This document shows, one piece after another, positions 29,912 through 44,570 of a DNA stretch of 64,000 nucleotides (position 1 is the first letter of the stretch; every line of letters begins with the position of its first letter). The notes below the pieces were generated by a model. It was given only the letters and a program-made list of their open reading frames with translations, did not search any database and was not told where the DNA came from. The DNA comes from Algoriphagus winogradskyi (GTDB taxonomy: Bacteria; Bacteroidota; Bacteroidia; Cytophagales; Cyclobacteriaceae): positions 558,001 to 622,000 of the forward strand of contig NZ_FXUA01000002.1 of assembly GCF_900182815.1 (NCBI RefSeq), given 5' to 3'. Made by a program: the position numbers and the translations under genes.

Positions 29912-31185
29912 TCTTGCTTCATTTTATAGGTCAGCAATCTAGGATTCACAATCAATTGCACCCAACCCCAGTTATTGGTGTTTTCTGAACTTGTTCCGCC
30001 TTTCACAGCACTCATACTTTCCGTGGCAAATAGCTGAGAGTAACCCACATTCATTTTCACATATTTTCCCAGGGAGTTACCATAGACTAAGTCAAGCTCT
30101 GTTCCCAGATTTTGTGATAAATCGTTTGCCATTTCACCGTTGGCAAAAAACACGTGAGCATTCAGACCCAAAGTGGATTTCTCTCCAGTTGGTAAGGCTA
30201 TTTTTCCATAGACATCATTCAGTCCTACGTTATTGGCATGATTTCCCACGTAGAAGTAATCCATGTATCCATTGAATTTATGGTTGGTACCATAAAGAGG
30301 GAAGAAGGATTTATTCTTTTCTTCGCCAGCTTGATCTGTCCCACTCAATGACTCAAAGCCTCCAATTAAAGTCACTTTTCCAGCTTTATATTTTGCCTCA
30401 ACCATGTATTGGTACGCGCTCAGATCTGTGGAGGCATTTGCCTTTCCAGTCTGCAAATAAGCTGAACCCGTAATAATGAGGGCAGAAAGCGGGAAGGTAA
30501 AGTAAGTGCCTGTAGTCTGGCGGTAATAAAGTCCGTCTGTCTGAGGAATGGGATCGCTACTGTACTTCTGAAAACCATTATTCATAAAGAGAAAGCTAAT
30601 CGATCCTTTGTCCCACGCCTTAGTAAGGTGAGCCATTTGCATGGATTTGTAGGAGAAAAACCCAGTAATGGTATAGTCACTACCTATAGTTTTTTGATTC
30701 TCCTGATTGTAGGCAAAAGCTAAATCCAGCTTGAACTGATCTTTGGAATACTGGATCATCGCGGCATCATGAAATCTTCCCTGCATCGCCCAATCCACTT
30801 CGCCAAGTATTCTCTGATCATCATAAGAAATCGTTTGACGGCCAAGCTTTAATGCCCAGTTTGGAGTAAAAGAATAGCGAAGCCAAGCCTGAAAAAGGCC
30901 AAAAGAGTCATTTCCATCTGCTGCACTGAGTTGCTGGGTGTCGCCCCAGGTACTTACGTCCTGTACACTTAAGTAGAGGCTTAGCTTTTCGTCTTGAAAA
31001 CCCAAATTGAGTCTAGATCGCTGCGTTACAAATGCTGCAGGTTTTCCATTATCTGGGAATAGGCTACCAAAGCCGTGTCTATATTCAAACCGAGGACGTA
31101 TGTCCGCGTCTAATGTGAATTCCTGAGCCAATACAATTTGATGGTATGCTACGAAGGCAAGAATTAGCGTAAAAATCTTTTTCAT
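29908..31185 (-). CDS. Alginate-export-type outer membrane porin of the nitrate island
   Basis: 425 aa from ATG 31185, with a signal peptide (MKKIFTLILAFVAYHQIVLAQ). It resembles the alginate_exp / porin barrel family: LDADIRPRFEYRHGFG, QRSRLNLGF, WALKLGRQTISYDDQRILG, and a C-terminal strand ending LTYKMKQD. In the ORF an upstream start (31218) lies inside the promoter region and is rejected. Two 16-bp inverted repeats like those before nirB and the nitrate transporter lie upstream, so it is probably a nitrate-regulated porin that admits nitrate/nitrite. It overlaps the dsbD stop by 4 bp. Confidence 0.8.
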   Translation of the reverse strand: MKKIFTLILAFVAYHQIVLAQEFTLDADIRPRFEYRHGFGSLFPDNGKPAAFVTQRSRLNLGFQDEKLSLYLSVQDVSTWGDTQQLSAADGNDSFGLFQAWLRYSFTPNWALKLGRQTISYDDQRILGEVDWAMQGRFHDAAMIQYSKDQFKLDLAFAYNQENQKTIGSDYTITGFFSYKSMQMAHLTKAWDKGSISFLFMNNGFQKYSSDPIPQTDGLYYRQTTGTYFTFPLSALIITGSAYLQTGKANASTDLSAYQYMVEAKYKAGKVTLIGGFESLSGTDQAGEEKNKSFFPLYGTNHKFNGYMDYFYVGNHANNVGLNDVYGKIALPTGEKSTLGLNAHVFFANGEMANDLSQNLGTELDLVYGNSLGKYVKMNVGYSQLFATESMSAVKGGTSSENTNNWGWVQLIVNPRLLTYKMKQD

Positions 31186-31215: not shown

Positions 31216-31223
31216 CAAATATA
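31216..31223 (-). promoter_or_regulatory. Candidate -7 box of the porin gene
   Basis: The minus strand reads TATATTTG, matching TAnnTTTG. It overlaps the first two bases of the 31222-31237 inverted repeat, as at nirB. Confidence 0.5.
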
Positions 31224-31237
31224 AGTATAAATACTTA
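31222..31237. promoter_or_regulatory. Candidate NarL-like operator, porin promoter site 1
   Basis: TAAGTAT-AA-ATACTTA is a 7-2-7 inverted repeat with perfectly complementary arms, the geometry used by NarL-type response regulators. Its centre is about 44 bp upstream of the porin ATG. Confidence 0.65.
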
Positions 31238-31254
31238 TTATATTTTAAATAAAA

Positions 31255-31270
31255 TACGTATAAATACTAA
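31255..31270. promoter_or_regulatory. Candidate NarL-like operator, porin promoter site 2
   Basis: TACGTAT-AA-ATACTAA has the same 7-2-7 layout. Its centre is 33 bp from site 1, about three DNA turns, so the two sites would lie on the same face of the helix. Confidence 0.55.
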
Positions 31271-31348
31271 GTTTTATATTTTCTGGAATTTCTAACATTT
31301 CTTCTCGAATCGATTTAAATGCTTCCACTGAATACAGATCACTGCTCA

Positions 31349-32812
31349 CTATTCAACTTGCTTTTCAAAAGTCTTTTTCACAAACTTCGATTTAGGAGCT
31401 TCGCAAAGAGAGCAAAGGTAAGTCTCGGGTAAATCCTCAAATGCAGTCAATGGAGCTATATTCTGAACCAAATCTCCGTATGCTGGATCATAAACTGTGA
31501 GGCAATCCGAGCATTGATAAGCTTCAGTTTTTATAGTCTCCTTTGGAGTAGCCAATTTTTTGGAACCCTCTGGCTTTTTTCCCAACTGCTCGAAGTACAT
31601 CTTACTTAGCTCGATCAAAAGTCCCGGCAATTCTACCTTATCCACTTCTTGTACGTAGACGATGTATTGCTGTGAGTTTGGATCAAAGTTTTTTGCATAA
31701 AGAAGATTGTACGTATTTCGGATTTTGATGCCTTCCAATCCTGCCGGTGGCTGATTTTTCTCTATGATGATGGAGGTGAAGTAATATGCCTTTCTGGTGT
31801 AATCAGTGATTCCAAAAGTAAGTCCGTAAGTACTGATATCCCGCTTGTCAAAGTTGTCAACAAGATATTCTTTGAGTTTCAGCGCAGATTTATTGTTGAC
31901 AGGAAGATGCCAATTCAGTTCCAGCATGGAGTGTCGCACATTGATTCCGTAATGGCCCAGCAGTCTTTCCCATTCGATTTTTGTGTTTTCTGGAATTCCT
32001 TTAATGATAATGGATTTCCAGGGCGTGATGGAGATTTTTCCGATTCGGCTGTCCGCACAGAGGTCACAGAGCACCTTCAAAAAGTCTATGTAGTACTTAT
32101 TATTTCTCCAATACAATCCCAGCCAATAGCGATCGTCTCCCACACGATTGATGCCTTCGTAGTAGGGAAACGGGTAAAAGGGAACTTCAAGTGGAGTGTC
32201 CACTGTACGGTTATTGGAATCCACAGCGTCATTCACCAACTCAAATAGAAACTCCACATCGGCTGGCTCTTCCTTCAAAATCTCTTCAATTGCTGCAGCT
32301 ACTTTTGCTATATCCCAACTGTAAATAAGCGCTGGATACATCATTGTCTCTTCCCATTCTGGCAGACGGACGTACAGATACCAGTAATCCTCGTGTGCAG
32401 AAGCTATGAAATTCAAATGCCCCGTGAAAAGTGGTACAAGGCGCTGTTTGGGGTCTGTAATGTTGATTTTTAGGTTTGGCTGTACTCTGAATTGTTCCAA
32501 AATATACAGATATCGATCCCCAGTCAGCCAAGGGGTGTTAGGAAAAATGTCTGATGAAACGTAAGAAGAAACAATATTTTCCACCCCCAATTCCTCCGGA
32601 GACACCAATTGAAATTTATCCTGAGAATCAATTTCCAGCGTATCATCATCTTTGATAAAGAGAATATCTTGACGAGAGCCCAATGAAATAGTGTCCAAAC
32701 CGGCACTTTCTGCCAGTTCCAAAATCTGCTTTAATTCTGCGGGTGAAAGTACTCCGCCTCTTACGACTACTCTAGAATAATTTTGTGTCATCTGCTTACA
32801 AGTTACTTTCAA
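31349..32812 (-). CDS. Rubredoxin-domain protein with degenerate nitrite/sulfite reductase half-domains
   Basis: 487 aa. The C-terminus (about 425-480) is a rubredoxin-like iron site: YQCSDCLTVYDPAYGD and LCSLCEAPKS give two CxxC pairs. The rest looks like two ferredoxin-like half domains of the nitrite/sulfite reductase type (RVVVRGGVLSPAELKQILELAESAGLDTISLGSR, and DLCADSRIGKISITPWKSIIIKGI). The C-x5-C and C-x3-C ligands of the siroheme/4Fe4S site are absent, so it is not a catalytic nitrite reductase. It sits 27 bp after the nitrate reductase fusion gene and probably supplies electrons to it. Start could be codon 1 or Met 8. Confidence 0.75.
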   Translation of the reverse strand: MKVTCKQMTQNYSRVVVRGGVLSPAELKQILELAESAGLDTISLGSRQDILFIKDDDTLEIDSQDKFQLVSPEELGVENIVSSYVSSDIFPNTPWLTGDRYLYILEQFRVQPNLKINITDPKQRLVPLFTGHLNFIASAHEDYWYLYVRLPEWEETMMYPALIYSWDIAKVAAAIEEILKEEPADVEFLFELVNDAVDSNNRTVDTPLEVPFYPFPYYEGINRVGDDRYWLGLYWRNNKYYIDFLKVLCDLCADSRIGKISITPWKSIIIKGIPENTKIEWERLLGHYGINVRHSMLELNWHLPVNNKSALKLKEYLVDNFDKRDISTYGLTFGITDYTRKAYYFTSIIIEKNQPPAGLEGIKIRNTYNLLYAKNFDPNSQQYIVYVQEVDKVELPGLLIELSKMYFEQLGKKPEGSKKLATPKETIKTEAYQCSDCLTVYDPAYGDLVQNIAPLTAFEDLPETYLCSLCEAPKSKFVKKTFEKQVE

Positions 32813-32839
32813 AGGATTTACTCAGGGTGATGGTTGATT

Positions 32840-35800
32840 TCACGCCAGTACTTTTGATTGGTGAAGAATCTCTCTAACTTCTGTTTTACAACTTCCGCAA
32901 CCCAAACCAGCTCCTGTTTGCTGGCATAGAGCAGTAAAATCCGTGCATCCTCCTGCAATAGCTTCCTGGATATTTCCCTCGCCTACACGGCTACAGCTAC
33001 ATACTAATTTTCCTATTACTGGCCTTGTATCAGAAGATCCCATGAGCAGTGATTTCCTTTTTTCAGATAGCTCAATTTTGTTTTCGATAAGGGATTTGAA
33101 CTCAGCAAATTCATTTTTATCCCCCATCAGCACAGCGCCAATTAGCAAGTCATCTTTGACGATACACTTCTTGTAATAGCGACGACTGATATCGGTGAAA
33201 ATGATTTCCTCGTAGCTATCATCATTTTCAGGTATGATGATATCCCCAATACTGCACAGTTCCAAATCCTTAAATTTCAGAATGTTCATCAGCACGGATC
33301 CGCTATAAATGCTGCTGACATCACCAGCGATATAATTTGCCAAAACCATAGCTTGCTCCTCAGCAGCAGAAGTGATTCCGAAGAGTTGATTTTGGAATTC
33401 TGCGATCTCGCCTATGGCAAAAATGTTAGGATAATTGGTCTGTAAGTGCTGATTGACCTTGATGCCACGACCACATAAAATCCCGTTATCCCGGGCAATT
33501 TTGATATTCGGCTGAGTGCCAATGGCGTAAACTACTGCATTGGCGTAAATGATTTTTCCGCTTTTCAGCGTGATGGAAAGCGACTTGTGTTCTTCATCAT
33601 CGAAAACTGTGCTCACTTCGTTGTCGAAATACACGTGAATTCCACGCTCCTGCACATCCAATGAAAGCAGCTTGCTGGAAACCTCATCCAGTTGTCGTTC
33701 CATGAGTCTGGAAGCGCGCTGCACGATGGTCACTTTCACACGGTTGTGCTGTAAGGCCGCAGCAAGTTCTAGTCCCAACAAGCCACCGCCGATAATCACG
33801 ACATGCTGATTTTCAGGTGGTAACTTGGTCGAGTCTAAGTAATCTTTGAATCGATCCGCATCAATTTTACTTCGCATTGTGAATCTACCAGGCAGGTCTA
33901 GCTGAGCATCTTTCGGTATAAAAGCTCTACTTCCTGTAGCTAGGATCAACTTGTCGAAAGGATATTCATGCCCATTATCGTCAACCACCACCTGCTTTTC
34001 TGGATCGATCTTTTCTATGGAAAGGCCAGTATGAAGAGAGATTTTAAGCTTCTGAAGCTCATATTCCTTTATCTTCTGAAGCTGCTCCCAAGTCAGTTCT
34101 TCGGTCACATATTCCGGTAATAGAACCCTGTTGTAGAACGGATGGGGTTCCTTCGAAAATACATGAATCTGATCGGAATCATTATGCTCTCGGTAGTTTT
34201 GGATAAAACGGAAAGCGGCGGCTCCGGCGCCCACTACCACTATTTTCTCTTTTTCTTTTTTGTATTTGGATACTGATACCGTCGTAAATTTAAAATCCGG
34301 TTCCTTGGACTGCGGATCGACCACAGTTTTGGTCAGGTTATTTGCTCGATTGAGATCACTTTGAAGTTGCTTGCCCCAGTGCATTGGGAGAAAAACTACG
34401 CCTTCTAGAATGCTTTTGGAAAGCTTGGCCTTCACACGAACGATGCCGTTTTTGCTTTTGACCTCTACAACATCACCATCTTTCACCTTGTCCAAATAGG
34501 CATCTATGGGATTAATTTCTAGTACTGGACTTGGGTAATGCGTACGAAGTCGGGATACTTTTCCCGTCTTGGTCATCGTGTGCCACTGATCACGAACACG
34601 TCCTGTCGTAAGAATCAAAGGATATTCCTTGCTCGTTTTTTCGGAAGTGTTTTCTATTTGAGCAGGGATATTGAAGATCGCTTTTTGAGTCGGTGTATAG
34701 AATTTATTGTCTGAAAATAGTCGCGCGGTTCCTGTGTGTCTGTATTCTGGAACAGGCCATTGGAAGGTGCCCTCACTTTTCAGTCTATCGTAGTTCAAAA
34801 AGGAAATATCAATGTTCGTACCTTTGGTCATGGCACAATATTCCTCGTAAATCTCCTCCGTATTGTTAAAATTAAAGCCTCGGAAACCCATTCTGCGGGC
34901 AAAATCGCAAAGTATCTCTACGTCAGGTCTAGCTTCTCCCGGAGGATTGATTCCTTTGTTGAGGTAAGAAATTCTACGCTCAGAATTGGTCATAGTGCCT
35001 TCTTTCTCCAGCCATCCTGCTGCAGGCAGAACCAAATCTGCATATTCAACCGTGTCAGCTTTGTGTGAAATATCCTGAACGACTACGAATTTGGCATTTT
35101 TCATCGCCTTTTCGATCTTCTTCGAATTTGGCAAACTCACCATAGGGTTGGTGCAGATGATCCAAACGGCCTTCATTTCCCCACTTTCCAAAGCCTCAAA
35201 CATCTCAGTGGCAGATAATCCAGGTTCTGGAGAAATCTCATTTACGCCCCAAAAATTCGCGACTTCCTGTCGGTGTACAGGATTATTCAAGTCCTTGTGA
35301 ACAGCCAGTAAACTCGCCATTCCACCCACTTCACGCCCTCCCATGGCATTTGGCTGACCTGTGAGAGAAAAGGGCCCATTTCCAGGTTTCCCGATTCTGC
35401 CAGTTACCAAAGAAAGGTTCAGCAGAGAAAAATTCTTATCGGTACCTATGGCGCTTTGGTTGAGCCCCATCGCCCACATGCTGATGAATCCTTTGGATTC
35501 GCCGATGATCTCTGCTACTTTTTTAATGTCGTCAACAGAAATTCCGCAGAGTTTTGAAGCTTCTTTCAAGGAAGTTGCCATCACTTGCTTGCGGTACTTC
35601 AGGTAGTTTTCGGTGTGATTTTCTATGAATTCTTTATCTGCCAGTCCGATTTCTATGATTCTACGGCCGATGGCGTTGTATAAAATAATGTCAGTGCCGG
35701 GAATGATTTGCAGGTGAATATCCGCGAAAGTAGCAGAATCGGTTTTGCGTGGATCCACGACTATTATCTTCACATTGGGATTTTTCTCCTTATGCTTTTC

Positions 35801-36364
35801 CAATCTGCGGAAAAGGATAGGATGACACCAGGCGGGATTTGCGCCAGCGATCAAAAAAGCATCTGCCAACTCTATGTCTTCATACGAAATAGGAACTGAG
35901 TCTTCTCCAAATGTTTTCTTGTAAGCAACTACCGCCGAGCTCATGCACAAGCGACTGTTGGTATCGATGTTATTTGTGCCCAGAAAGCCTTTTGTGAGCT
36001 TATTTGCGATGTAATACTCTTCAGTAAGGCATTGTCCTGAAATGTAAAAGCCTACACTGTTTGGTCCGTATTTCTGAATCAAAGACTTGAAAACACCAGC
36101 AGCTCTGTCGAGTCCTTGGTCCCAGCTCACCCGCTCCCGAGGATGAGATCTACTCCAACGCATCTCAGGATAGAGAATTCTATCCGAAGTATCGTTTACC
36201 ACGTAGTGCAGATTACGGCCCTTGGAGCAAAGCATGCCCTGGTTCACAGGATGATTCTGATCACCTTCGACCTGAACTTTGTTTTGAGAGTCCACCTCAG
36301 CAACTATTCCGCAGCCAACGCCGCAGTAAGAACAAGTGGTTTTGATTTTTTTATCTGGGATCAC
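32840..36364 (-). CDS. Assimilatory nitrate reductase fused to NirB-like flavoprotein and BFD domain
   Basis: 1174 aa. Residues 1 to about 690 are a molybdopterin nitrate reductase of the NasC/NarB type: 4Fe4S ligands C11, C14, C18 and C46, a Mo-ligand candidate C140 (NSRLCMSS), and the C-terminal MopB beta domain. From about 705 an FAD/NAD(P)H oxidoreductase domain follows (KIVVVGAGAAAFRF, then VVIIGGGLLGLELAAAL) like the N-terminus of NirB. A BFD-type 2Fe2S domain ends the protein (VCSCSRVGEG, GCGSCK). It would reduce nitrate to nitrite in the cytoplasm using NAD(P)H on one chain. The neighbours are the transporter and rubredoxin genes. Confidence 0.93.
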   Translation of the reverse strand: MIPDKKIKTTCSYCGVGCGIVAEVDSQNKVQVEGDQNHPVNQGMLCSKGRNLHYVVNDTSDRILYPEMRWSRSHPRERVSWDQGLDRAAGVFKSLIQKYGPNSVGFYISGQCLTEEYYIANKLTKGFLGTNNIDTNSRLCMSSAVVAYKKTFGEDSVPISYEDIELADAFLIAGANPAWCHPILFRRLEKHKEKNPNVKIIVVDPRKTDSATFADIHLQIIPGTDIILYNAIGRRIIEIGLADKEFIENHTENYLKYRKQVMATSLKEASKLCGISVDDIKKVAEIIGESKGFISMWAMGLNQSAIGTDKNFSLLNLSLVTGRIGKPGNGPFSLTGQPNAMGGREVGGMASLLAVHKDLNNPVHRQEVANFWGVNEISPEPGLSATEMFEALESGEMKAVWIICTNPMVSLPNSKKIEKAMKNAKFVVVQDISHKADTVEYADLVLPAAGWLEKEGTMTNSERRISYLNKGINPPGEARPDVEILCDFARRMGFRGFNFNNTEEIYEEYCAMTKGTNIDISFLNYDRLKSEGTFQWPVPEYRHTGTARLFSDNKFYTPTQKAIFNIPAQIENTSEKTSKEYPLILTTGRVRDQWHTMTKTGKVSRLRTHYPSPVLEINPIDAYLDKVKDGDVVEVKSKNGIVRVKAKLSKSILEGVVFLPMHWGKQLQSDLNRANNLTKTVVDPQSKEPDFKFTTVSVSKYKKEKEKIVVVGAGAAAFRFIQNYREHNDSDQIHVFSKEPHPFYNRVLLPEYVTEELTWEQLQKIKEYELQKLKISLHTGLSIEKIDPEKQVVVDDNGHEYPFDKLILATGSRAFIPKDAQLDLPGRFTMRSKIDADRFKDYLDSTKLPPENQHVVIIGGGLLGLELAAALQHNRVKVTIVQRASRLMERQLDEVSSKLLSLDVQERGIHVYFDNEVSTVFDDEEHKSLSITLKSGKIIYANAVVYAIGTQPNIKIARDNGILCGRGIKVNQHLQTNYPNIFAIGEIAEFQNQLFGITSAAEEQAMVLANYIAGDVSSIYSGSVLMNILKFKDLELCSIGDIIIPENDDSYEEIIFTDISRRYYKKCIVKDDLLIGAVLMGDKNEFAEFKSLIENKIELSEKRKSLLMGSSDTRPVIGKLVCSCSRVGEGNIQEAIAGGCTDFTALCQQTGAGLGCGSCKTEVREILHQSKVLA

Positions 36365-36620
36365 TACTCAGGTGTTAGAATTTGAATTTGGAAAATATGG
36401 ATATCTGTAATGATGTCAGGTATTTCATTTTCTTAGCTTAAAGGACGGAAGATCGAAGTGGCCTTAAATCTGGCGGTTAGCTTATTTTAGTATGATTTAA
36501 TCTCGTTGATAATTGAAATGCGATATACATATGATTTATTATAATTATAAGCGTCTATGGTAGCCTGCTAGTAAAGAACTTAAACACCAGTGAGGGAGGC
36601 AAACATTAACATTGAAGTTG

Positions 36621-36647
36621 CTTCGGTCATCGGTCATCGGTCTGGCC
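36621..36647 (-). repeat. Dispersed intergenic repeat, GACCGAAGACGGATGACCG family, copy 2 (variant)
   Basis: CTTCGGTCATCGGTCATCGG and the adjoining TCTGGCC are a shortened variant of the copies at 27682 (reverse complement) and 59980. A further diverged piece is visible near 36441-36462. Confidence 0.55.
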
Positions 36648-36656
36648 TTTATCAAC

Positions 36657-36705
36657 AAAATAGCTCATCCGCAAGACAAATGGTCAACTGCAGAAGAGCT
36701 ATTTT
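36657..36705 (-). terminator. Possible terminator of the nitrate transporter gene
   Basis: AAAATAGCTC and GAGCTATTTT form a 10-bp stem with a 29-nt loop, T-rich at the 3' side on the minus strand. The large loop makes this less certain than the other terminators. Confidence 0.45.
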
Positions 36706-36722
36706 GGGAGTGATGCTACAAG

Positions 36723-38147
36723 TTAATTATCAATTCTGACTAATTCAGGTTGCAGTTTGCTTAATTCTACCTCAGCCACTTTTTCATCCTCTGTGCTGAA
36801 TCGAATGGCTAAAGCAACCATTCCTGATACTACGATCAATCCTCCTATGACCAAATATCCTGCAGATACAGCACTTGCTGCAGCGGCTGATTGTGCAGCT
36901 GCTACTGCTTCAGGGCCAAGCGTTTCACTTGCAATTACCGCAGCTTTTTCTGCCACGGCAGATTTGGAGCTTAGGAAAAGCGCTGCTATAAAGGCACCAA
37001 AATTCCCGCCTGCTCCTACGATTCCAGAGATAGAACCGATTGCTTTCCTATTCACAAATGGGACAACTGAGAATGTGGCCCCCTCCGCCATTTGTACAGC
37101 TAGGCTAAATGCAATTAACAAAGCAAATCCTATGAAAAGTCCTGTGGCCAGAGAGAACAAACTAAGCATTAATCCCTCTACAATTAAAATTGCTGCCAAA
37201 AACCAAACTCTTCCTTTCAATCCTCTCAATTTTCCAAATTTGTCGCCAAAGTATCCTCCAAGTGTACGTGCAAAAATGTTCATCAGCGCGAATGAGAGTA
37301 CGATATTACCCGCAGTGATTCGCTCCAGTTGGAAGGTGTTCTGCAAGTAATCGTCCATGGTTCCATATACGGTTAGTTCTATTCCAAAACAGGCCGCATA
37401 AACAATGAACAGTAACCATACTCGGTAATCTTTAACTGCTTCTGCAAATCCCACTTTGTCCTTTTTGGTCGAAGGAACCTGCATTCCTCTAGCTTCCAAT
37501 TCTTTGAAATTTCCTGCTGGAGTATCTTTTGTGAAAAAGTAATATATCAAGCCCATGCTAAAGCATACGATTCCCGCAATCACCATGGCATATCTCCAAG
37601 CATCTGCCTGAGCGACTCCGGCTCCTATCACTATAGCTGCGATAATTGGCATTCCAAGTCTATTTGCTCCGCCACCTAAATTCCCCCAGCCTGCAGAAGT
37701 TGCATTGGCGGTTCCCACGACATTGGAGGCAAACATCAGCGAGGTATGGACCTGAGTGATGACAAAAGAAGCACCAATAAATCCTGTCAACAGTCTGCAA
37801 ATCATAAACTGCATCGGCGTTTGCACCAATCCACTAAGTATAACTGGAATTGAGCCAAGGATAAGCAGCCAGGTGTAACAAAGTCTTGGACCGTATTTGT
37901 CACAAAGTTTCCCGATGAGAAGTCTGGCGAAAACTGTTCCCGCTACTGCTAATACTGTAGCGTTCCATTTTTGGGCAGGAGTAAGGCCAAGATCCTTGAC
38001 CACGTCAGGCATGAAAGGCACTATACCGAACCATGCGAAAAAGCAGATGAAAAACGCGATTGATGTAATCCAGAATGTACGGATAGGCACGGTTTTGAAA
38101 TCAAGAAGATTTAAACGTGTCGCTTTGTGTGTAAGTAGTGGTTCCAT
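36723..38147 (-). CDS. Nitrate/nitrite MFS transporter (NarK/NasA type)
   Basis: 474 aa with about 12 membrane segments. The nitrate/nitrite porter family signature is visible as the glycine-rich stretch SAGWGNLGGGANRLGMP (helix 5) and GSISGIVGAGGNFGAF (helix 11). The start is typical (TFWITSIAFFICFFAWFGIVPFMP). A hydrophobic Ala-rich stretch near 410-430 lies between the last helices. It brings nitrate into the cytoplasm for the reductase encoded downstream. A 7-2-7 inverted repeat at 38175-38190 sits just upstream of the ATG. Confidence 0.94.
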   Translation of the reverse strand: MEPLLTHKATRLNLLDFKTVPIRTFWITSIAFFICFFAWFGIVPFMPDVVKDLGLTPAQKWNATVLAVAGTVFARLLIGKLCDKYGPRLCYTWLLILGSIPVILSGLVQTPMQFMICRLLTGFIGASFVITQVHTSLMFASNVVGTANATSAGWGNLGGGANRLGMPIIAAIVIGAGVAQADAWRYAMVIAGIVCFSMGLIYYFFTKDTPAGNFKELEARGMQVPSTKKDKVGFAEAVKDYRVWLLFIVYAACFGIELTVYGTMDDYLQNTFQLERITAGNIVLSFALMNIFARTLGGYFGDKFGKLRGLKGRVWFLAAILIVEGLMLSLFSLATGLFIGFALLIAFSLAVQMAEGATFSVVPFVNRKAIGSISGIVGAGGNFGAFIAALFLSSKSAVAEKAAVIASETLGPEAVAAAQSAAAASAVSAGYLVIGGLIVVSGMVALAIRFSTEDEKVAEVELSKLQPELVRIDN

Positions 38148-38168
38148 AATACTTATATTTAACTGAGT

Positions 38169-38176
38169 TAAAAGTA
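38169..38176 (-). promoter_or_regulatory. Candidate -7 box of the nitrate transporter gene
   Basis: The minus strand reads TACTTTTA, one mismatch from TAnnTTTG. As at nirB and the porin it overlaps the first two bases of the adjacent inverted repeat. Confidence 0.4.
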
Positions 38177-38190
38177 AGTATAAATACGTA
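38175..38190. promoter_or_regulatory. Candidate NarL-like operator, transporter promoter
   Basis: TAAGTAT-AA-ATACGTA is a 7-2-7 inverted repeat identical in all 16 bases to the nirB site at 44511-44526. TACGTAATTAAT, which starts inside it, is repeated 20 bp further upstream. Confidence 0.65.
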
Positions 38191-38223
38191 ATTAATAAAA
38201 ATAATACGTAATTAATTTAGAAT

Positions 38224-38262
38224 AAAAATAAAAAATCCACTTAGAATTGCTCTGAGTGGATT
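38224..38262 (-). terminator. Intrinsic terminator of the response regulator gene
   Basis: AATCCACT and AGTGGATT form an 8-bp stem with a 13-nt loop. The minus strand continues into a long T-rich tract. It separates the regulator transcript from the transporter gene. Confidence 0.75.
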
Positions 38263-38303
38263 GCTGACTAAGTATAAAATTGAATATATTTTTCTGGATT
38301 CCT

Positions 38304-38350
38304 TTTTTAACCGCGAAGGACACGGAGTTTTTCGCAGAGAGCGCAGTATT
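38304..38350 (+). repeat. Dispersed intergenic repeat (AACCGC...CACGGAG...CGCAGAG family), copy 1
   Basis: TTTTTTAACCGCGAAGGACA and the following CACGGAG-TTTTTCGCAGAG-AGCGCAG resemble a widespread short intergenic repeat type. A second copy in reverse orientation is at 44928-44967. Both flank the regulator and nir genes of the nitrate island. Confidence 0.6.
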
Positions 38351-38449
38351 AATTTATTTTTCTTATCCCACCAAACAAAGGCTTTATAGTTCTGAGACTG
38401 CGACTGATCACTAATCTCTATAGTTCCCATCCCGACTTAATAAGTACTG

Positions 38450-39112
38450 CTAGATCAAATTCAATTCTCTGGATTTGGTAGTGAGCTCTACCAGATTCTT
38501 CACGTTCATTTTCTTCATCAGGTTAAAGCGGTGAACCTCTGCCGTTCTTTTGCTGATTTCCAGTGCATCAGCGATTTCATTATTTCCTTTTCCTTCCAGA
38601 ATGAGTTCTAAGATCTGCTTTTCTCTGTTTGTCAGATTAGCCAATTCTTCCGGAAGCACATCGGACTTGGAAGATGCTTTGGGTTTTCCATTGACGAAAT
38701 TGTTGATAATATATGCCGACACATCTCCAGCAAAAAATTTCCCGCCATTGGAAATCGTGTGTAAAGCCTTTAAGAACTCACTTTTAGAGGATCCTTTCAG
38801 CAAATACCCATCTGCTCCAGCCTGAATAGCCTCTACTACATACTCTTCCGAATCATGCATAGATAGGACAAGCTTTTTGATTTTTGGAAAGGATTTGGTC
38901 ATTTCCTTAACTACTTCCAATCCGTTCATGCGTGGCATTCGAATGTCCACTATTAGTAGATCAGGATGTTGCTCCGCGATCACTTTCAGCGCTTCGACAC
39001 CGTCGGAAGCCTCGTCGATAACTTGGAATTCTTGTTCACTTTCAAGGAGTGACTTGATTCCATCCCGTACCAATTCGTGGTCATCCGCTAAAACTATCTT
39101 TATTGGGTTCAT
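38450..39112 (-). CDS. NarL/FixJ-type response regulator
   Basis: 220 aa. The receiver domain (1-120) has D10/D11, the phosphorylation site D56 (LLIVDIRMP) and K106-type residues. The LuxR-type helix-turn-helix spans about 150-215 (LTNREKQILELILEGKGNNEIADALEISKRTAEVHRFNLMKKM). It lies 59 bp downstream of the PilJ-type kinase and is probably its partner. By context it controls nitrate/nitrite genes through the 7-2-7 inverted repeats. Two related half-site clusters (39120-39133 and 39150-39156) precede it. Confidence 0.92.
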   Translation of the reverse strand: MNPIKIVLADDHELVRDGIKSLLESEQEFQVIDEASDGVEALKVIAEQHPDLLIVDIRMPRMNGLEVVKEMTKSFPKIKKLVLSMHDSEEYVVEAIQAGADGYLLKGSSKSEFLKALHTISNGGKFFAGDVSAYIINNFVNGKPKASSKSDVLPEELANLTNREKQILELILEGKGNNEIADALEISKRTAEVHRFNLMKKMNVKNLVELTTKSRELNLI

Positions 39113-39119
39113 ATGCGCT

Positions 39120-39156
39120 TAAGTAAATACGTAGTAAAGTAACAGAATTTACGTAT
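39120..39156. promoter_or_regulatory. Possible regulator sites before the response regulator gene
   Basis: TAAGTAAATACGTA (39120-39133) is the same pair of half-sites as at nirB but with the spacer shortened by 2 bp. TACGTAT follows at 39150-39156. This may allow autoregulation. It is weaker than the three full sites. Confidence 0.4.
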
Positions 39157-39171
39157 AATAATCTAGAAAAT

Positions 39172-40983
39172 CTAAGTCAAAGGAAGGTTGAGCGTCACTT
39201 TGGTTCCTTCGTTTGGAGAAGAATTGATGAATAATCTTCCGTTGATGTATTTCACCCGCTCCCGCATAAAAGTCAGTCCCATTCCGCCTTCTTCGTCAGG
39301 TTTGGATTTCAGCTTTGACTTGTCGAAGCCCTTTCCGTTATCATCAACGATGATGCTTAGGATATTTTGACTATGCGAGACCGTCACGATGATGTGAGAG
39401 GACTCTGCATATTTAATAGCGTTGTTAATCGCTTCTTGCGTAATTCGATACAAATTAATTTCTATCAAGGAATCTAATCGCTGGGAGAATTCAGATTTGT
39501 TGAAAAGTACAATCTCTTTTCCGGTAAGTTTGGAAAGCTCCTGAGTCAATTCCGTCAGCGCTGGGACAATTCCGTAATCCTTTAATTCAGGCGGGGTAAG
39601 ATTGAAAGTGGCAGTTCTTACTCCTTTGATGATATTGGAAGTCAGCTCTTTTAGCTTAATGATCTTCACCTCGGCTTTCTCGGGATCGGTGGTGTCCACA
39701 CTTTCCAGTAGGTATTTCAGTCCGGTGAGCATCTGACCGATCCCATCATGAATATCTTTTGCAATACGATTTTGCTCATTTTCCTGATTTTCGATTATTT
39801 GTCGGGAAATGACCTTTTGTTGATGCATTTTTTCCTCGAAACTCTCCTTTGTGAGTTGCTCTACCTGATGCATAAATTCCTTACGCTTGGTAATATCCAG
39901 GCAAATCAAAATCAGTTCGGATTTGTCTTCAGCCGAATTGAAAGGAATCATGGAGACGTCAAGCCAGATATCTTCGCCAGTTTGTGAAGTGGTTTTTAAT
40001 TCCCCTTCCCAGCCTGCTTTTTTGTTTTCGGCGATAATGCGATCTATCGTGAGCTGCTCATTTTCGAGAGGGGAAAGCAAATCTGAAATCTTCGCATTGA
40101 CGTTGAATTTTTGTGCTTTGTACAATCTGCTGAAGCGCTCACCTATATGGGTGATGTAACCTTCAGGAGTAATCCTTGCGAAAAGCAGAATCTGATCCAT
40201 AGCTTTGCTCAAAGCCTGTAATTCCCGTACAGATTTTTCCTTGGATTGACTCAGAATATCCGCGTTTTTGGCCATTTGAATTGCTTTTTCCTCGGCATCC
40301 ATCAGCTCGTGAATGCTGGCTTTCATGGCTTTTGCCGAAGGCCAAAAAATTATTAAAAACTCACCAACTAAGACCAGTAGGGTGAAAAGTGTAATGAGTA
40401 ATTCTACCCGCTTCAAGTTTGAGACTTTCTCCTTTGCTTCGTGATCATATTGGTTCACGATCTCATCCATTTTCACCAAAAAGCTTGTTGCATTACTCTC
40501 TATGCTTTTCAGCTGATCTGCCATGGCTGTGGAGTCTGGTGCTTCGGCAGATTTGAGAAAAATGAAATTTTGTGTAGCCTCAGTGACTTGCTTGAAATAA
40601 GGATTAATCTCCTCAAACATTTTCGTGACCTCGGGACTATTTTCCACGCTGAAATCCTGGGATTCATCCCCGAGTTGCAGGATTTGATGGGCGATTTCCC
40701 AGCGAGTCATGGTGTGTTGGATCGAATCGGTGAGTGGCCCAATGGCTTCAGGAGACGTGGCTGTAGAAAGCAAAAGCACTTCCTTGTTCAGCTTTTGGCT
40801 GAGCATACGCTGCCGACCAGCCACATTGACCAGTCGGCTGTCATTTTCCTGATCATTCAGATGTTTTCTGATGAGAATCTGGCTCGCGATCAGGGAGATG
40901 GCTATAGCTCCCAAGGCAATGATGTAAAGTCTCCGTAGACGATTAAAAGTATCTTGATCCAGGGATCGCGGTGTACCAGTCAT
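39172..40983 (-). CDS. NarX-like sensor histidine kinase with PilJ-type sensor domain
   Basis: 603 aa. A membrane segment near residues 18-37 is followed by an extracytoplasmic PilJ-type four-helix domain with LVNVAGRQRMLSQKLNKEVLLLS, comparable to the nitrate-binding P-box of NarX. A second membrane segment lies near 190-212. A coiled region, a PAS domain (about 265-380), a HisKA_3 dimerisation domain with H412 (IAKDIHDGIGQML) and an HATPase domain (about 500-603, DDNGKGF, GGMGLTFMRERV) follow. It probably senses nitrate or nitrite and phosphorylates the adjacent regulator. The DUF4202 gene lies 4 bp upstream. Confidence 0.92.
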   Translation of the reverse strand: MTGTPRSLDQDTFNRLRRLYIIALGAIAISLIASQILIRKHLNDQENDSRLVNVAGRQRMLSQKLNKEVLLLSTATSPEAIGPLTDSIQHTMTRWEIAHQILQLGDESQDFSVENSPEVTKMFEEINPYFKQVTEATQNFIFLKSAEAPDSTAMADQLKSIESNATSFLVKMDEIVNQYDHEAKEKVSNLKRVELLITLFTLLVLVGEFLIIFWPSAKAMKASIHELMDAEEKAIQMAKNADILSQSKEKSVRELQALSKAMDQILLFARITPEGYITHIGERFSRLYKAQKFNVNAKISDLLSPLENEQLTIDRIIAENKKAGWEGELKTTSQTGEDIWLDVSMIPFNSAEDKSELILICLDITKRKEFMHQVEQLTKESFEEKMHQQKVISRQIIENQENEQNRIAKDIHDGIGQMLTGLKYLLESVDTTDPEKAEVKIIKLKELTSNIIKGVRTATFNLTPPELKDYGIVPALTELTQELSKLTGKEIVLFNKSEFSQRLDSLIEINLYRITQEAINNAIKYAESSHIIVTVSHSQNILSIIVDDNGKGFDKSKLKSKPDEEGGMGLTFMRERVKYINGRLFINSSPNEGTKVTLNLPLT

Positions 40984-40987
40984 TTGA

Positions 40988-41566
40988 TTAGGTAATGGCT
41001 TCTTTGACTAATTCTAAACTTGAGGGTGAAAGAGGTAATTGTAATGCTGCCCGGTGCCCTTTTTCAGACATTTTTGCCCAGGTTTTCTGAAGTATGTCGA
41101 TGATTTTGGCGGATTCATGCTTGGCCGCAAATTCTTCAAAATAATATTCCAAAAAGACCAGGCAGATGACGTCTTCCATGGTTTGAGTATCTGGATCTGT
41201 TTTCAGTTGCTTCTTTCTGATGAGGAACTTTACTCGTTCTATGGTTTCTTCATCATAACCAGCTTCCTGAAGGATCTTCGCAGCCATGTCAGCATGCATC
41301 TTTTTCAGCTCTTCCCTCCACTTGAGATATCCTACTCTATCCATTGGATAGTCTGACCTTGGAATCTTCCATCTTCCGATGTGCTGTGCCCTGACGGCTA
41401 GCTGCATAGCTTCTGATGATTCAGGATCAAACTGATCCAATTTTTCGGTCATACGGATGGAGTATAACAGCTCTTTTGCAATCTCTTTTCCCGCTACTAC
41501 TTCTTTGATTGGGTCTTCCGCATTGACCTGATCGATCAATGTGATTGCTTTCTGGAATTTGTTCAT
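40988..41566 (-). CDS. DUF4202 domain-containing protein
   Basis: 192 aa with no signal peptide. It matches the DUF4202 family: start FQKAITLIDQVNAEDP, conserved RAQHIGRWKIPRSDYPMDRVGYLKWREELKKMHA, and CLVFLEYYFEEFAAKH. The conserved His/Glu/Asp pattern is reminiscent of HD-type or metal-binding enzymes, but no reaction is established to my knowledge. It is sandwiched between nirD (12 bp gap) and the sensor kinase (4 bp gap), so it is part of the nitrite operon and probably has a nitrogen-related role. Confidence 0.85.
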   Translation of the reverse strand: MNKFQKAITLIDQVNAEDPIKEVVAGKEIAKELLYSIRMTEKLDQFDPESSEAMQLAVRAQHIGRWKIPRSDYPMDRVGYLKWREELKKMHADMAAKILQEAGYDEETIERVKFLIRKKQLKTDPDTQTMEDVICLVFLEYYFEEFAAKHESAKIIDILQKTWAKMSEKGHRAALQLPLSPSSLELVKEAIT

Positions 41567-41578
41567 GTGTCAATTGGA

Positions 41579-41956
41579 TTAATCTGCGAATCCAATATAT
41601 ACATTTCCCTCCTGAATCCTGACCGGATAAGTTGCAATACTATATTCTTCTCCGTTGAGATTGCTGCCATTTTCCAGCGAAAAGGTCTTCTTGTGAAGCG
41701 GGCAGGCCACTTTGGGGATTCCTTGTGAATCGCCCGTCATGCCTCGGCTTAAGACCATTTCCATCTTGTGGGGGCAAAGGTTTTGGCAGGCATACCAAGA
41801 GTTGGTTCTCGTAAAATGGTAAACGGCAACCTGTTTGGATTTGTATTTCACACAGGCACCGGCATTTGCTGGGAAGTCATTTGTCTGACCTACTTTGATC
41901 CAATGAATAGCATGTTCCTCTGCTACGGATTGATAATTTTTTAATAATTCTTCCAT
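41579..41956 (-). CDS. nirD: Nitrite reductase small subunit NirD (Rieske-type)
   Basis: 125 aa Rieske 2Fe2S protein. The cluster-binding boxes are visible as NLCPHKM (Cys and His) and ACPLHKK. The rest matches NirD (WIKVGQTNDFPANAGACVKYKSKQVAVYHF at the N-terminus, TYPVRIQEGNVYI at the end). It partners with NirB in cytoplasmic NADH-dependent reduction of nitrite to ammonium. It lies 18 bp downstream of nirB on the same strand. Confidence 0.94.
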   Translation of the reverse strand: MEELLKNYQSVAEEHAIHWIKVGQTNDFPANAGACVKYKSKQVAVYHFTRTNSWYACQNLCPHKMEMVLSRGMTGDSQGIPKVACPLHKKTFSLENGSNLNGEEYSIATYPVRIQEGNVYIGFAD

Positions 41957-41974
41957 GATCTTATTCGTATAGGA

Positions 41975-44485
41975 TTACCAAGGTCTAGGCATTTTTTGAT
42001 CTCTCATCGGAACGAATACCAAACTGTCGTCGGTCTCATCAGAGTTGACAAAGGGCTTAAATCGCTTCATCATTTGTGGATCTTCGATGGCTTCTTTCCA
42101 TTCGCAGGCATATCGCTGCACCAGTTCCTCCATTTCTGCTTCCAGTTCCTCGCCGATTCCGAGGCTATCTTCTACCACTACTTTTTTCAAATAGTCAATT
42201 CCACCTTCCAGTTTTTCCAGCCAAGGAGCTGTCCGCTGAAGGGGAGCAGCAGTTCTGATGTAATAGACCAGGAATCTATCTAAGTATTTGATGCAGGTTT
42301 CGTCATCCAGTTTCTCTGCCAAAAGGATTGCGTGCTTCGGTGTAGCTCCGCCGTTTCCACAGACGAAGAGGTTCCATCCACCTTCCACTGCGATGACCCC
42401 AAAGTCCTTTCCTCTTGCCTCGGCGCATTCACGGATACATCCGGATACGCCACCTTTAAGCTTATGCGGGGAACGAAGACCTTTGTAGCGCTCTTCGATT
42501 CGGATCGCAAAGCTTACGCTGTCATGCAAACCGTATCTGCACCAAGTCGAGCCAACACAGCTTTTGACTGTCCTAAGTGATTTGCCGTAGGCGTGACCGC
42601 TTTCGAAGCCAGCATCGATGAGTTCTTTCCAAATCATCGGCAACTCATGAAGCTGGGCACCAAAAAGATCAATACGCTGACCTCCTGTGATTTTGGTGTA
42701 GAGATCGTATTTCTTTGCGACTTGCCCCAAAACCATCAGTTTCTCTGGAGTAATCTCTCCGCCCGGTACTCGAGGCACTACTGAGTATGTGCCGTTTCTC
42801 TGAATATTTGCCAAAAATCTGTCGTTCGAATCCTGAATAGGTGCCTGGCGATTGGCTGTTTCCATGTAGATACTGGCGAAAATGGAAGCCAAAACAGGTT
42901 TGCAGGTCTCACAACCATGGCCTTTGCCATGTCGATCCAGTGCTTCGTCAAAATCCATAATGCTTTGAAGCTTCACTAAATCGTACATTTCCTGACGGCT
43001 GTATTCGAAGTGCTCACAAATGGTTTCCTTCACTTCCTGCCCCATGGACTTTAAAGTCTCTTTCACCAAGTCGGTCACCATTGGTTTGCAGCCGCCGCAA
43101 GAGCTCGAGGCTTTGGTGCTCTTTACCACATCTGAGAATGAACAGCAGGAGCCGCTCGTGATGGAATCACAGATGGTTCCTTTACTTACTGCTTCACACG
43201 AGCAGATTTGTGCTGTATCCGGTAGATCGAGTACTGAACCCAAAGCACTTTTGCTCTCTCCACCTCTGGAACCCAAGATCAAATCTTCCGGATTCTCAGG
43301 AAGCTTCATGGCATTGATGTAAAGCTGAAACAGGGTGTTGTAATCGGAGGAATCTCCAACCATGATGCCTCCAAGGAGCTTCGAACCATCTTTGGCTATA
43401 TTGATTCTTTTGTAAACTCCTCGTTGCTTGTTTTCATAGACAATCGCGGTGACCTCATCGTTTTCGATAAAAGGGTCTCCAAAAGAAGCCACTTCTGTAC
43501 CTACCAGTTTCAGCTGGGTGGACATATCTATGGAAGGACTCATGAGTTTTTCTCCTCCGGTGATTTGCTCCACCGCCACTCCAGCCATCTCATAGCCTGG
43601 AGCAACTAATCCGTAGATGCCATTATTATAAAGTGCCACTTCTCCGATAGCATAGATCGCCGGATCTGAGGTTTCCATTTTATTGTTTACATAGACTCCG
43701 CCGCGTTCACCTGTTTTTAGACCGCATTTCACCGCCAATTCATCTCGCGGGCGAATTCCAGCGGAAATAATCAGCATGTCTGTTTGAAGTGAGGTTTCGT
43801 CCGTAAAATTGATTTTTTCGATACCTTCTTCACCGATGATTTCCTGGGAGTTTTTGCCAAGATGAATTTTCATCCCAAGGCTCTCAATCTTTCTCTGAAG
43901 CATATCACTGGCAGCTTTGTCCAGTTGACGAGGCATCAAGCGGGGAGCAAATTCGACTACGTCTGTCTGCATGCCTAGTTCTTTTGCTGCATTTGCAGCT
44001 TCCAAGCCTAGCAGTCCGCCGCCAAGGACGGAAGCCTTGAACTTACCATCATTCTTCAGTTTCTGCGCGTAATCCTTGATCGCGTCAAGATCTTCGATGG
44101 TTCTGTAGATAAATACGCCTGGCTTGTCTACTCCTTTGATGTTTGGAACGAAGCAGGAAGAACCGGTTGCTAAAACCAGGTAGTCATATTCGAAATAATC
44201 ATGCTTATGGGTAAACACACGCTTAGATTCATTTTCGATATCAGTGATCATTTCACCTGTTCGAAGTGTGATACCGTTTTCAGCATACCATTCGCGAGTA
44301 GCCAAAAGCAGCTTATCCGCAGAGTCTAGAGAGAAGTATTCACTCAGATGGACACGATCGTATGCCGGTCTGGATTCCTCGCCGAACACGGTAATCTCAA
44401 ACTCATCGCGAAGTGGGTGAGTAGCTAGTTTTTCGCAAAACTTATACCCCACCATTCCATTTCCTATGACAATAACTTTCTTCAT
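41975..44485 (-). CDS. nirB: NADH-dependent nitrite reductase large subunit NirB
   Basis: 836 aa, the full family length. FAD and NADH binding motifs are at the N-terminus (KVIVIGNGMVGYKF, then ASVLGGGLLGLEAANAA). A BFD-type 2Fe2S domain is in the middle (CSCEAVSKG, CGGCK). The C-terminal nitrite/sulfite reductase domains carry C-x5-C (SCVGSTWC) and C-x3-C (GCIREC) for the 4Fe4S-siroheme site. It reduces nitrite to ammonium. It heads the nirB-nirD-DUF4202-kinase run and has a 7-2-7 inverted repeat and a TATATTTG box just upstream. Confidence 0.96.
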   Translation of the reverse strand: MKKVIVIGNGMVGYKFCEKLATHPLRDEFEITVFGEESRPAYDRVHLSEYFSLDSADKLLLATREWYAENGITLRTGEMITDIENESKRVFTHKHDYFEYDYLVLATGSSCFVPNIKGVDKPGVFIYRTIEDLDAIKDYAQKLKNDGKFKASVLGGGLLGLEAANAAKELGMQTDVVEFAPRLMPRQLDKAASDMLQRKIESLGMKIHLGKNSQEIIGEEGIEKINFTDETSLQTDMLIISAGIRPRDELAVKCGLKTGERGGVYVNNKMETSDPAIYAIGEVALYNNGIYGLVAPGYEMAGVAVEQITGGEKLMSPSIDMSTQLKLVGTEVASFGDPFIENDEVTAIVYENKQRGVYKRINIAKDGSKLLGGIMVGDSSDYNTLFQLYINAMKLPENPEDLILGSRGGESKSALGSVLDLPDTAQICSCEAVSKGTICDSITSGSCCSFSDVVKSTKASSSCGGCKPMVTDLVKETLKSMGQEVKETICEHFEYSRQEMYDLVKLQSIMDFDEALDRHGKGHGCETCKPVLASIFASIYMETANRQAPIQDSNDRFLANIQRNGTYSVVPRVPGGEITPEKLMVLGQVAKKYDLYTKITGGQRIDLFGAQLHELPMIWKELIDAGFESGHAYGKSLRTVKSCVGSTWCRYGLHDSVSFAIRIEERYKGLRSPHKLKGGVSGCIRECAEARGKDFGVIAVEGGWNLFVCGNGGATPKHAILLAEKLDDETCIKYLDRFLVYYIRTAAPLQRTAPWLEKLEGGIDYLKKVVVEDSLGIGEELEAEMEELVQRYACEWKEAIEDPQMMKRFKPFVNSDETDDSLVFVPMRDQKMPRPW

Positions 44486-44504
44486 GGCTACGTAATTTAG
44501 AGCT

Positions 44505-44512
44505 CAAATATA
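44505..44512 (-). promoter_or_regulatory. Candidate -7 box of nirB
   Basis: The minus strand reads TATATTTG, an exact TAnnTTTG match, about 20 bp upstream of the nirB ATG. It overlaps the operator by two bases. Confidence 0.55.
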
Positions 44513-44526
44513 AGTATAAATACGTA
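44511..44526. promoter_or_regulatory. Candidate NarL-like operator, nirB promoter
   Basis: TAAGTAT-AA-ATACGTA is identical to the site before the nitrate transporter. The identity continues through 19 bases (to ...GTAATT). Its centre is about 33 bp upstream of the nirB ATG. Confidence 0.65.
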
Positions 44527-44549
44527 ATTCAAAAGAAAATATAAAATAA

Positions 44550-44570
44550 ATACTTACTTATAATAAGTAT
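44550..44570. promoter_or_regulatory. Everted half-site pair upstream of nirB
   Basis: ATACTTA (44550-44556) and TAAGTAT (44564-44570) are the same heptamers in outward orientation, separated by 7 bp. They lie about 35 bp upstream of the main operator, similar to the spacing of the two porin sites. Confidence 0.4.

Follow-up and report, generated by a model that had tools for sequence, protein, structure and literature searches.

A predicted operator for a nitrate-sensing two-component pair in Algoriphagus and related Bacteroidota

The palindromic element TAMGTA-N4-TACKTA precedes nitrate genes in Algoriphagus winogradskyi and its relatives. We predict, with a probability of roughly three in four, that this element is the operator of a nitrate-sensing two-component pair and that the regulon is switched on by the pair's response regulator. 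The regulator is encoded at positions 38450–39112 of the window (the whole 64,000-nucleotide stretch of DNA analysed). It very probably binds the sites, since the site word follows the type of regulator from genome to genome. A preliminary description of the same DNA had named this protein as the likely reader, a proposal that the agreement supports, and had taken a shared inverted repeat to mark a nitrate regulon. Sites before nirB, narK and the porin gene, conserved in relatives, bear this out. That nitrate is the signal we infer from knowledge of the family. The predicted sign of control is activation rather than repression, and here our confidence is moderate.

Results

A nitrate cluster with a PilJ-type sensor kinase

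The genes of the cluster lie on the minus strand in the order nirB, nirD (Rieske), DUF4202, kinase, regulator, narK, the NasC-like gene, the rubredoxin protein gene and the porin gene (Table 1). The DUF4202 domain (PF13875) also occurred in 74 of the 80 kinase loci of our second set, described below (L188–L267), which ties this protein to nitrate use.

The kinase carries a PilJ domain (PF13675, E = 1.4e-14), and so belongs to the nitrate/nitrite-sensing histidine kinases in the broad sense. Residues N53, G56 and R59 of its P-box were invariant across 10 aligned kinases; the P-box and its G-x-x-R motif are described for nitrate sensor kinases in passages of PMC8199190. The window kinase shared 93% identity with its counterpart in Algoriphagus yeomjeoni and 91% with those of A. 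antarcticus and A. chordae. Pfam detected PAS_9 and neither HAMP nor GAF, so the domain layout is not that of NarX proper, and the score against the NCBIfam NarX equivalog (79.9 of 578 bits) was below the cut-off. The regulator has the receiver (PF00072) and GerE/LuxR-type helix–turn–helix (PF00196) that define NarL in outline. It scored 153.9 of 250 bits against NCBIfam NarL, 131.8 of 343 against NarP and 101 of 255 against the FixJ equivalog. Being under all of these cut-offs, it is filed under none of the three. The pair agrees with narHK/narRR in having no HAMP or GAF, a PAS domain or direct helix, and a place near nitrate genes. Hence, the label ‘NarX/NarL-like’ in the preliminary description is apt only loosely; passages of PMC8199190 set out a Bacteroidetes narHK/narRR type, PAS-bearing and lacking HAMP, to which the pair belongs. 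The names narHK and narRR occurred in no further paper of the literature searched, and the titles and abstract openings of that literature contained no DNA site for a pair of this type.

Table 1. Genes, predicted regulatory sites and candidate −7 boxes in the window.
Feature	Position	Strand	Remarks
nirB, nitrite reductase large subunit	41975..44485	−	
nirD-like Rieske subunit	41579..41956	−	
DUF4202 protein, in nirB gene row	40988..41566	−	function not assigned
Nitrate-sensor-type histidine kinase (PilJ sensor, PAS, HisKA_3, HATPase)	39172..40983	−	
Response regulator (receiver, GerE/LuxR-type HTH); proposed site reader	38450..39112	−	recognition helix stretch KRTAEVHRFNLMKK
NarK-type nitrate/nitrite transporter, MFS	36723..38147	−	292.3 of 311.7 bits, just under NCBIfam cut-off
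NasC-like molybdopterin reductase fused to NirB-like FAD/BFD part	32840..36364	−	under all NCBIfam cut-offs shown
Protein with nitrite/sulphite-reductase half domain and C-terminal rubredoxin	31349..32812	−	
Alginate-export-type outer membrane porin	29908..31185	−	TTG at 31218 is a mechanical ORF start only
nirB-promoter site	44511..44526	−	TACGTATTTATACTTA; ends 25 bp before nirB start codon
narK-promoter site	38175..38190	−	TACGTATTTATACTTA; ends 27 bp before start codon
Porin-promoter site	31222..31237	−	TAAGTATTTATACTTA; ends 36 bp before ATG at 31185
Second porin-promoter site	31255..31270	−	TTAGTATTTATACGTA; one mismatch
Extra half-site TACGTA near narK	38205..38210	−	34 bp upstream of −7 box start
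nirB −7 box	44505..44512	−	TATATTTG, exact TAnnTTTG; its TA doubles as the site's last TA
porin −7 box	31216..31223	−	TATATTTG, exact TAnnTTTG; TA common to porin site
narK −7 box	38169..38176	−	TACTTTTA, one letter off TAnnTTTG; TA common to narK site

Sites in the window and in the Algoriphagus genome

Four 16-mers had been reported upstream of the porin gene, the nitrate transporter gene (narK) and nirB. Their letters, coordinates and placement were as described (Table 1). Allowing up to two mismatches, TAMGTATAAATACKWA gave 7 matches in the window compared with an average of 0.18 over 100 shuffles; these 7 reduce to four distinct places, since three were counted on both strands. The extra half-site near narK was also found at narK of another genome, G091.

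The preliminary description had called for a whole-genome scan, and we scanned the Algoriphagus genome (4.97 Mb, 22 contigs). There were three exact matches to TAMGTATAAATACKTA, all within the nitrate cluster; the site at 31255 has one mismatch to this pattern. The looser core, TAMGTANNNNTACKTA (TAMGTA-N4-TACKTA), occurred at only 4 places, before porin, narK, nirB and moeA, all of them nitrate or cofactor genes. The reversed pattern, used as a control, matched at 3 places in the same genome, so the number of core places is unremarkable in itself and it is their locations that matter. The fourth place lies 35 bp before the unlinked moeA-mobA-cobA-moeB-moaE operon, ~208 kb from the nitrate cluster on the same contig. 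By Pfam, the products are MoeA, a MobA-like protein, a tetrapyrrole methylase, ThiF and MoaE; the operon provides nitrate and nitrite reductase with molybdopterin and siroheme. Two weaker candidates, C4:317298 (one mismatch) and C4:403881 (two), were discounted as chance matches, as they lie in or beside simple repeat of the CTTACCTCTTGATT type.

The conserved part of the site is a 6-4-6 palindrome. Since relatives differ at letters 7 and 10, this replaces the strict 7-2-7 reading. The hexamers as a whole followed an even 10-bp lattice only in part, with spacing peaks at 10, 20–25, 30–34, 42–43 and 53–54 bp, and also at 4 and 13–14 bp, off the lattice.

Sites of NarL-type regulators are TACYNMT heptamers arranged as 7-2-7 inverted pairs, and the preliminary description had linked the Algoriphagus sites to these. 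The link did not survive. The TACYNMT pair was present in 0 of 317 upstream regions. Letter 4 of the half-site, for which NarL wants C or T, was G at 253 of the 262 places that match in every other fixed letter. The heptamer reading was ruled out on both counts. TAMGTA-N4-TACKTA was found in 234 of the 317 regions, and has the TAMGTA core of FixJ sites, given as GTAMGTAG / TAAGTAATTTCCCTTA in passages of PMC4999443.

The sites are conserved in relatives

We examined two sets of relatives. The order set comprised 194 genomes, of which 68 have nirB and 26 pass our thresholds for a full-length kinase; for 66 of the 68, our own window among them, the stretch around nirB was analysed. All 25 genomes with a PAS-type nitrate kinase had the core upstream of nirB. 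Of the other nirB genomes, 3 of 41 had it ahead of at least one of five nitrate genes (Fisher p = 3e-15, uncorrected for kinship). Order-set core sites preceded narK in 4/6 cases, nasC in 10/15, porin in 9/10, cobA in 13/13 and moeA in 1/12. Within the PAS group, 61 of 74 upstream regions had the core, compared with a mean of 0.06 in shuffles. The 14-letter pattern TAMGTATNNATACKTA occurred in 19 of the 26 kinase genomes and also in 30 of the 168 genomes lacking a full-length kinase; in the former it matched at 33 places, and its reversed control at 14.

The second set consisted of 80 named GTDB loci, picked by similarity to the ten-kinase alignment. By title most were Flavobacteriaceae, a family that had no part in motif discovery. 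Exact sites were present in 75/77 nirB, 40/45 narK, 29/30 cobA, 20/48 nasC and 9/43 porin regions. Thus, the conservation at orthologues that the preliminary description looked for is clear at nirB and narK; at porin it is weaker in this set than in the order set. The two nirB misses were Neolewinella and Lewinella (L266, L267), which have a VETHR-type regulator and no TAMGTA site at nirB. In whole-genome scans of six of the seven named relatives there were 24 core sites versus 13 for the reversed control. Of these, 21 were before nirB, narK, porin, moeA or cobA, and the remaining three were all in A. chordae. The moeA site was present in 5 of 5 named Algoriphagus relatives searched, and the evidence for a link to moeA is confined to Algoriphagus.

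Some further observations were made in these sets. A locus titled as a Rickettsiales MAG (L264) contained a Bacteroidota-type nitrate cluster with sites, and is perhaps a misbinned contig. Several Flavobacterium narK leaders (L208, L210, L213, L217 and others) have an inverted repeat, ctgcgaaaacgcag, ~15 bp after the site. The hit tables showed stop codons inside the frames of the G082 kinase and the G192 nirB, reflecting either decay or assembly error.

The site word follows the type of regulator

The regions upstream of nirB, narK, nasC, porin and cobA were searched de novo for 6-mer palindromes, using a grouping slightly unlike the final one. For the PAS-kinase group, TACGTA-N4-TACGTA ranked first (58/74 regions when one mismatch was allowed, 0.3 expected). 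The PAS-less group gave TGAGTA-N4-TACTCA (21/42 regions, 0.0 expected) and the f11 group CATAGT-N8-ACTATG (18/50 regions, 0.0 expected). Only A/T-run and GC-run words, in at most 6 of 35 regions, were obtained from the group without kinase; a further group, with just three f11 genomes, was too small for a verdict.

In the final table, the exact TAMGTA type was present in 25/25 PAS genomes, 3/23 PAS-less genomes, 0/10 f11 genomes and 0/8 genomes in which no kinase was found. The TGAGTA-N4-TACTCA type was confined to the PAS-less group (12/23), and ATAGT-N8-ACTAT to f11 (9/10). No exact match to any of the three words was found in 10 of the 23 PAS-less genomes (G010, G168, G176, G177, G133, G024, G040, G048, G054 and G136) or in any of the 8 genomes where no nitrate kinase was found. 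In 9 of the 10 f11 genomes with an ANQR regulator, ATAGT-N8-ACTAT was upstream of both cobA and nirB (e.g. L122, L130). Family f16 contains both kinase types: TAMGTA was present in 10 of 10 PAS-type genomes, and the 5 PAS-less genomes had no TAMGTA and, in 4 cases, the TGAGTA type. Four f16 genomes (L155–L158) also have a second kinase (~30% identity along its length), encoded apart from nirB together with a regulator of its own whose helix reads IETHRLN.

The recognition helices of the same groups were E(V/T/A)HR, DNHR and ANQR. Hence, three palindromes appear to correspond to three types of recognition helix. The helix types are clades, so few independent events underlie the association of helix and site. 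Shared ancestry alone, as an account of the conservation, is opposed by the unlinked moeA site and by the two site types within f16, with the independent changes being few.

For 19 of the 80 second-set loci there was no close regulator in the flank, and 18 of these genomes were searched (that of L245 was left out). In 18 of 18 an orthologue was located elsewhere, 51–67% identical and with the same helix type; the next best match was at most 41% identical. A site was present in 14 of the 18 stretches around these displaced regulators. Such regulators (L268–L285) adjoin porin in 14 of 18 cases, 8 of these also nasC.

Position of the sites relative to the promoter

Promoters in Bacteroidota have a TAnnTTTG −7 box and a −33 consensus. 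An overlap between site and −7 box had been claimed for all three window promoters. The overlap is exact at nirB and porin, and at narK involves a box with one mismatch. Ending 25, 27 and 36 bp before start codons, the sites must overlie the core promoter whatever the box. The unusual position first described is thus borne out both by the overlap and by these short distances. In the second set, the distance from site to start was 17 to 34 bp in 68 of 75 nirB regions, and TTTG began two bases past the nearest site in 57/75 nirB, 9/40 narK, 12/20 nasC, 1/9 porin and 0/29 cobA regions. The order-set figures were 2/25 for nirB, 0/4 for narK, 5/10 for nasC, 1/9 for porin and 6/13 for cobA; with only 2 of 25 at nirB, the spacer position is not universal.

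To describe the phasing, each combination of genus, gene and offset was counted once, giving 70 cases. The box began at +14 from the site start in 41 of these. Of the other 29 boxes, 28 began at 24–28, 32–36, 45–47 or 55–57; as a group the 29 were phased at ~10–10.5 bp (R = 0.70, Rayleigh p ~8e-7, uncorrected for kinship between genera). No conserved −33 TTG was found in 69 nirB composite promoters, which were not thinned for kinship. Judged by these spacings, the spacer geometry is real, and the other sites keep to one helical face. Placement on one face, together with the missing −33 box, is as expected of an activator. Conversely, overlap with the −7 box is as expected of a repressor.

Discussion

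In the mechanism that we propose, the PilJ-domain kinase would sense nitrate or nitrite outside the membrane and phosphorylate the LuxR/FixJ-type regulator, a dimer of which would bind one TAMGTA hexamer per half. This would turn on the nirBD-DUF4202-kinase-regulator genes, narK with the downstream nasC-like and rubredoxin genes, and porin. In Algoriphagus, the regulon would also include the distant moeA-mobA-cobA-moeB-moaE operon, for the molybdopterin and siroheme of the two reductases. At the window promoters the dimer would sit in the spacer, sharing a TA with the TAnnTTTG −7 box; elsewhere it would keep to the same face, some one to four helical turns farther upstream. A more tentative proposal, to which we give somewhat less than even odds, is that this LuxR/FixJ-type regulator activates from inside the spacer. 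Operator and −7 box would then form a fused 22-bp element, TAMGTA-N4-TACKTA-NN-TTTG, in place of a −33 box, with the regulator and the Bacteroidota sigma factor reading the same TA. Related regulators would have kept a 16- to 18-bp palindrome while the half-site changed in step with the recognition helix.

The same regulator might instead act as a repressor, covering the spacer and −7 box and blocking polymerase until nitrate changes its state. The site does overlap the −7 box, in the window and at 57 of 75 second-set nirB promoters, which is a usual place for a repressor operator. We nevertheless consider repression unlikely, given that the remaining sites, at +24 to +57, stay on the same face of the helix, as for an activator, that the nirB composite promoters have no conserved −33 element, and that nitrate assimilation is normally nitrate-induced. 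It is improbable that some other regulator of nitrate genes reads the sites, with the two-component pair merely a co-inherited neighbour. Such a reader would account for the Lewinella-type loci, which have the regulator without the site, and binding by the pair is deduced from association. Against it, the site letters change with the type of recognition helix, even within family f16; no sites were seen where no kinase was found; and wherever the regulator was not beside the kinase it was located elsewhere, in 18 of 18 genomes.

The fixed spacing to TTTG in many nirB promoters could be that of an alternative sigma factor promoter, TAMGTA-N4-TACKTA-NN-TTTG, rather than of an operator. The dyad symmetry, the rows of hexamers with 10-bp steps and the several distances from the box make this very improbable. 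Finally, the reversed pattern also matches a few times per genome, as AT-rich chance or repeat sequence would. The chances of this are negligible and, in our view, it is already refuted by conservation: the core is in 61 of 74 PAS-group regions against a shuffle mean of 0.06, and 21 of 24 places in relatives are on expected genes, the unlinked moeA among them.

The proposed operator provides a DNA code and a regulon that can be tested, for a nitrate-sensing pair widespread in Bacteroidota, a phylum whose promoters have, to our knowledge, been little studied. In Algoriphagus it would tie cofactor supply to nitrate use. The three natural regulator/site pairs offer a means to learn which residues of the recognition helix go with which bases. 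Should the fused operator and −7 box have a positive effect, the activation geometry would be one that, as far as we know, is not usual for this family of regulators.

Comparison with known systems

E. coli NarX/NarL has the same sensor domain, regulator family, nitrate-gene targets and a 16-bp inverted repeat. The half-site differs, being TACYNMT for NarL and TAMGTA, with G at letter 4, here. In our alignment, NarL STVKVHVKHM is opposite RTAEVHRFNL of the regulator, and K188 and K192, the base-contact lysines of NarL, are aligned with E and F. MerR-type regulators are activators placed between promoter boxes, as we propose here from the position of the site. However, they belong to an unrelated protein family, and a lengthened spacer is no part of the geometry described here. 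The narHK/narRR pair of PMC8199190 shares the PilJ sensor with P-box, the PAS domain, the lack of HAMP and GAF, and the place beside nitrate genes; the passages on it are without a DNA site or regulon, and the present work proposes both, together with a promoter geometry. FixJ responds to a different signal and controls different genes. At fixK it protects −69 to −44 and −57 to −31 rather than the spacer beside the −7 box, according to passages of PMC4999443. FixJ sites, as given in those passages, share the TAMGTA hexamer and the 16-bp length with the sites described here.
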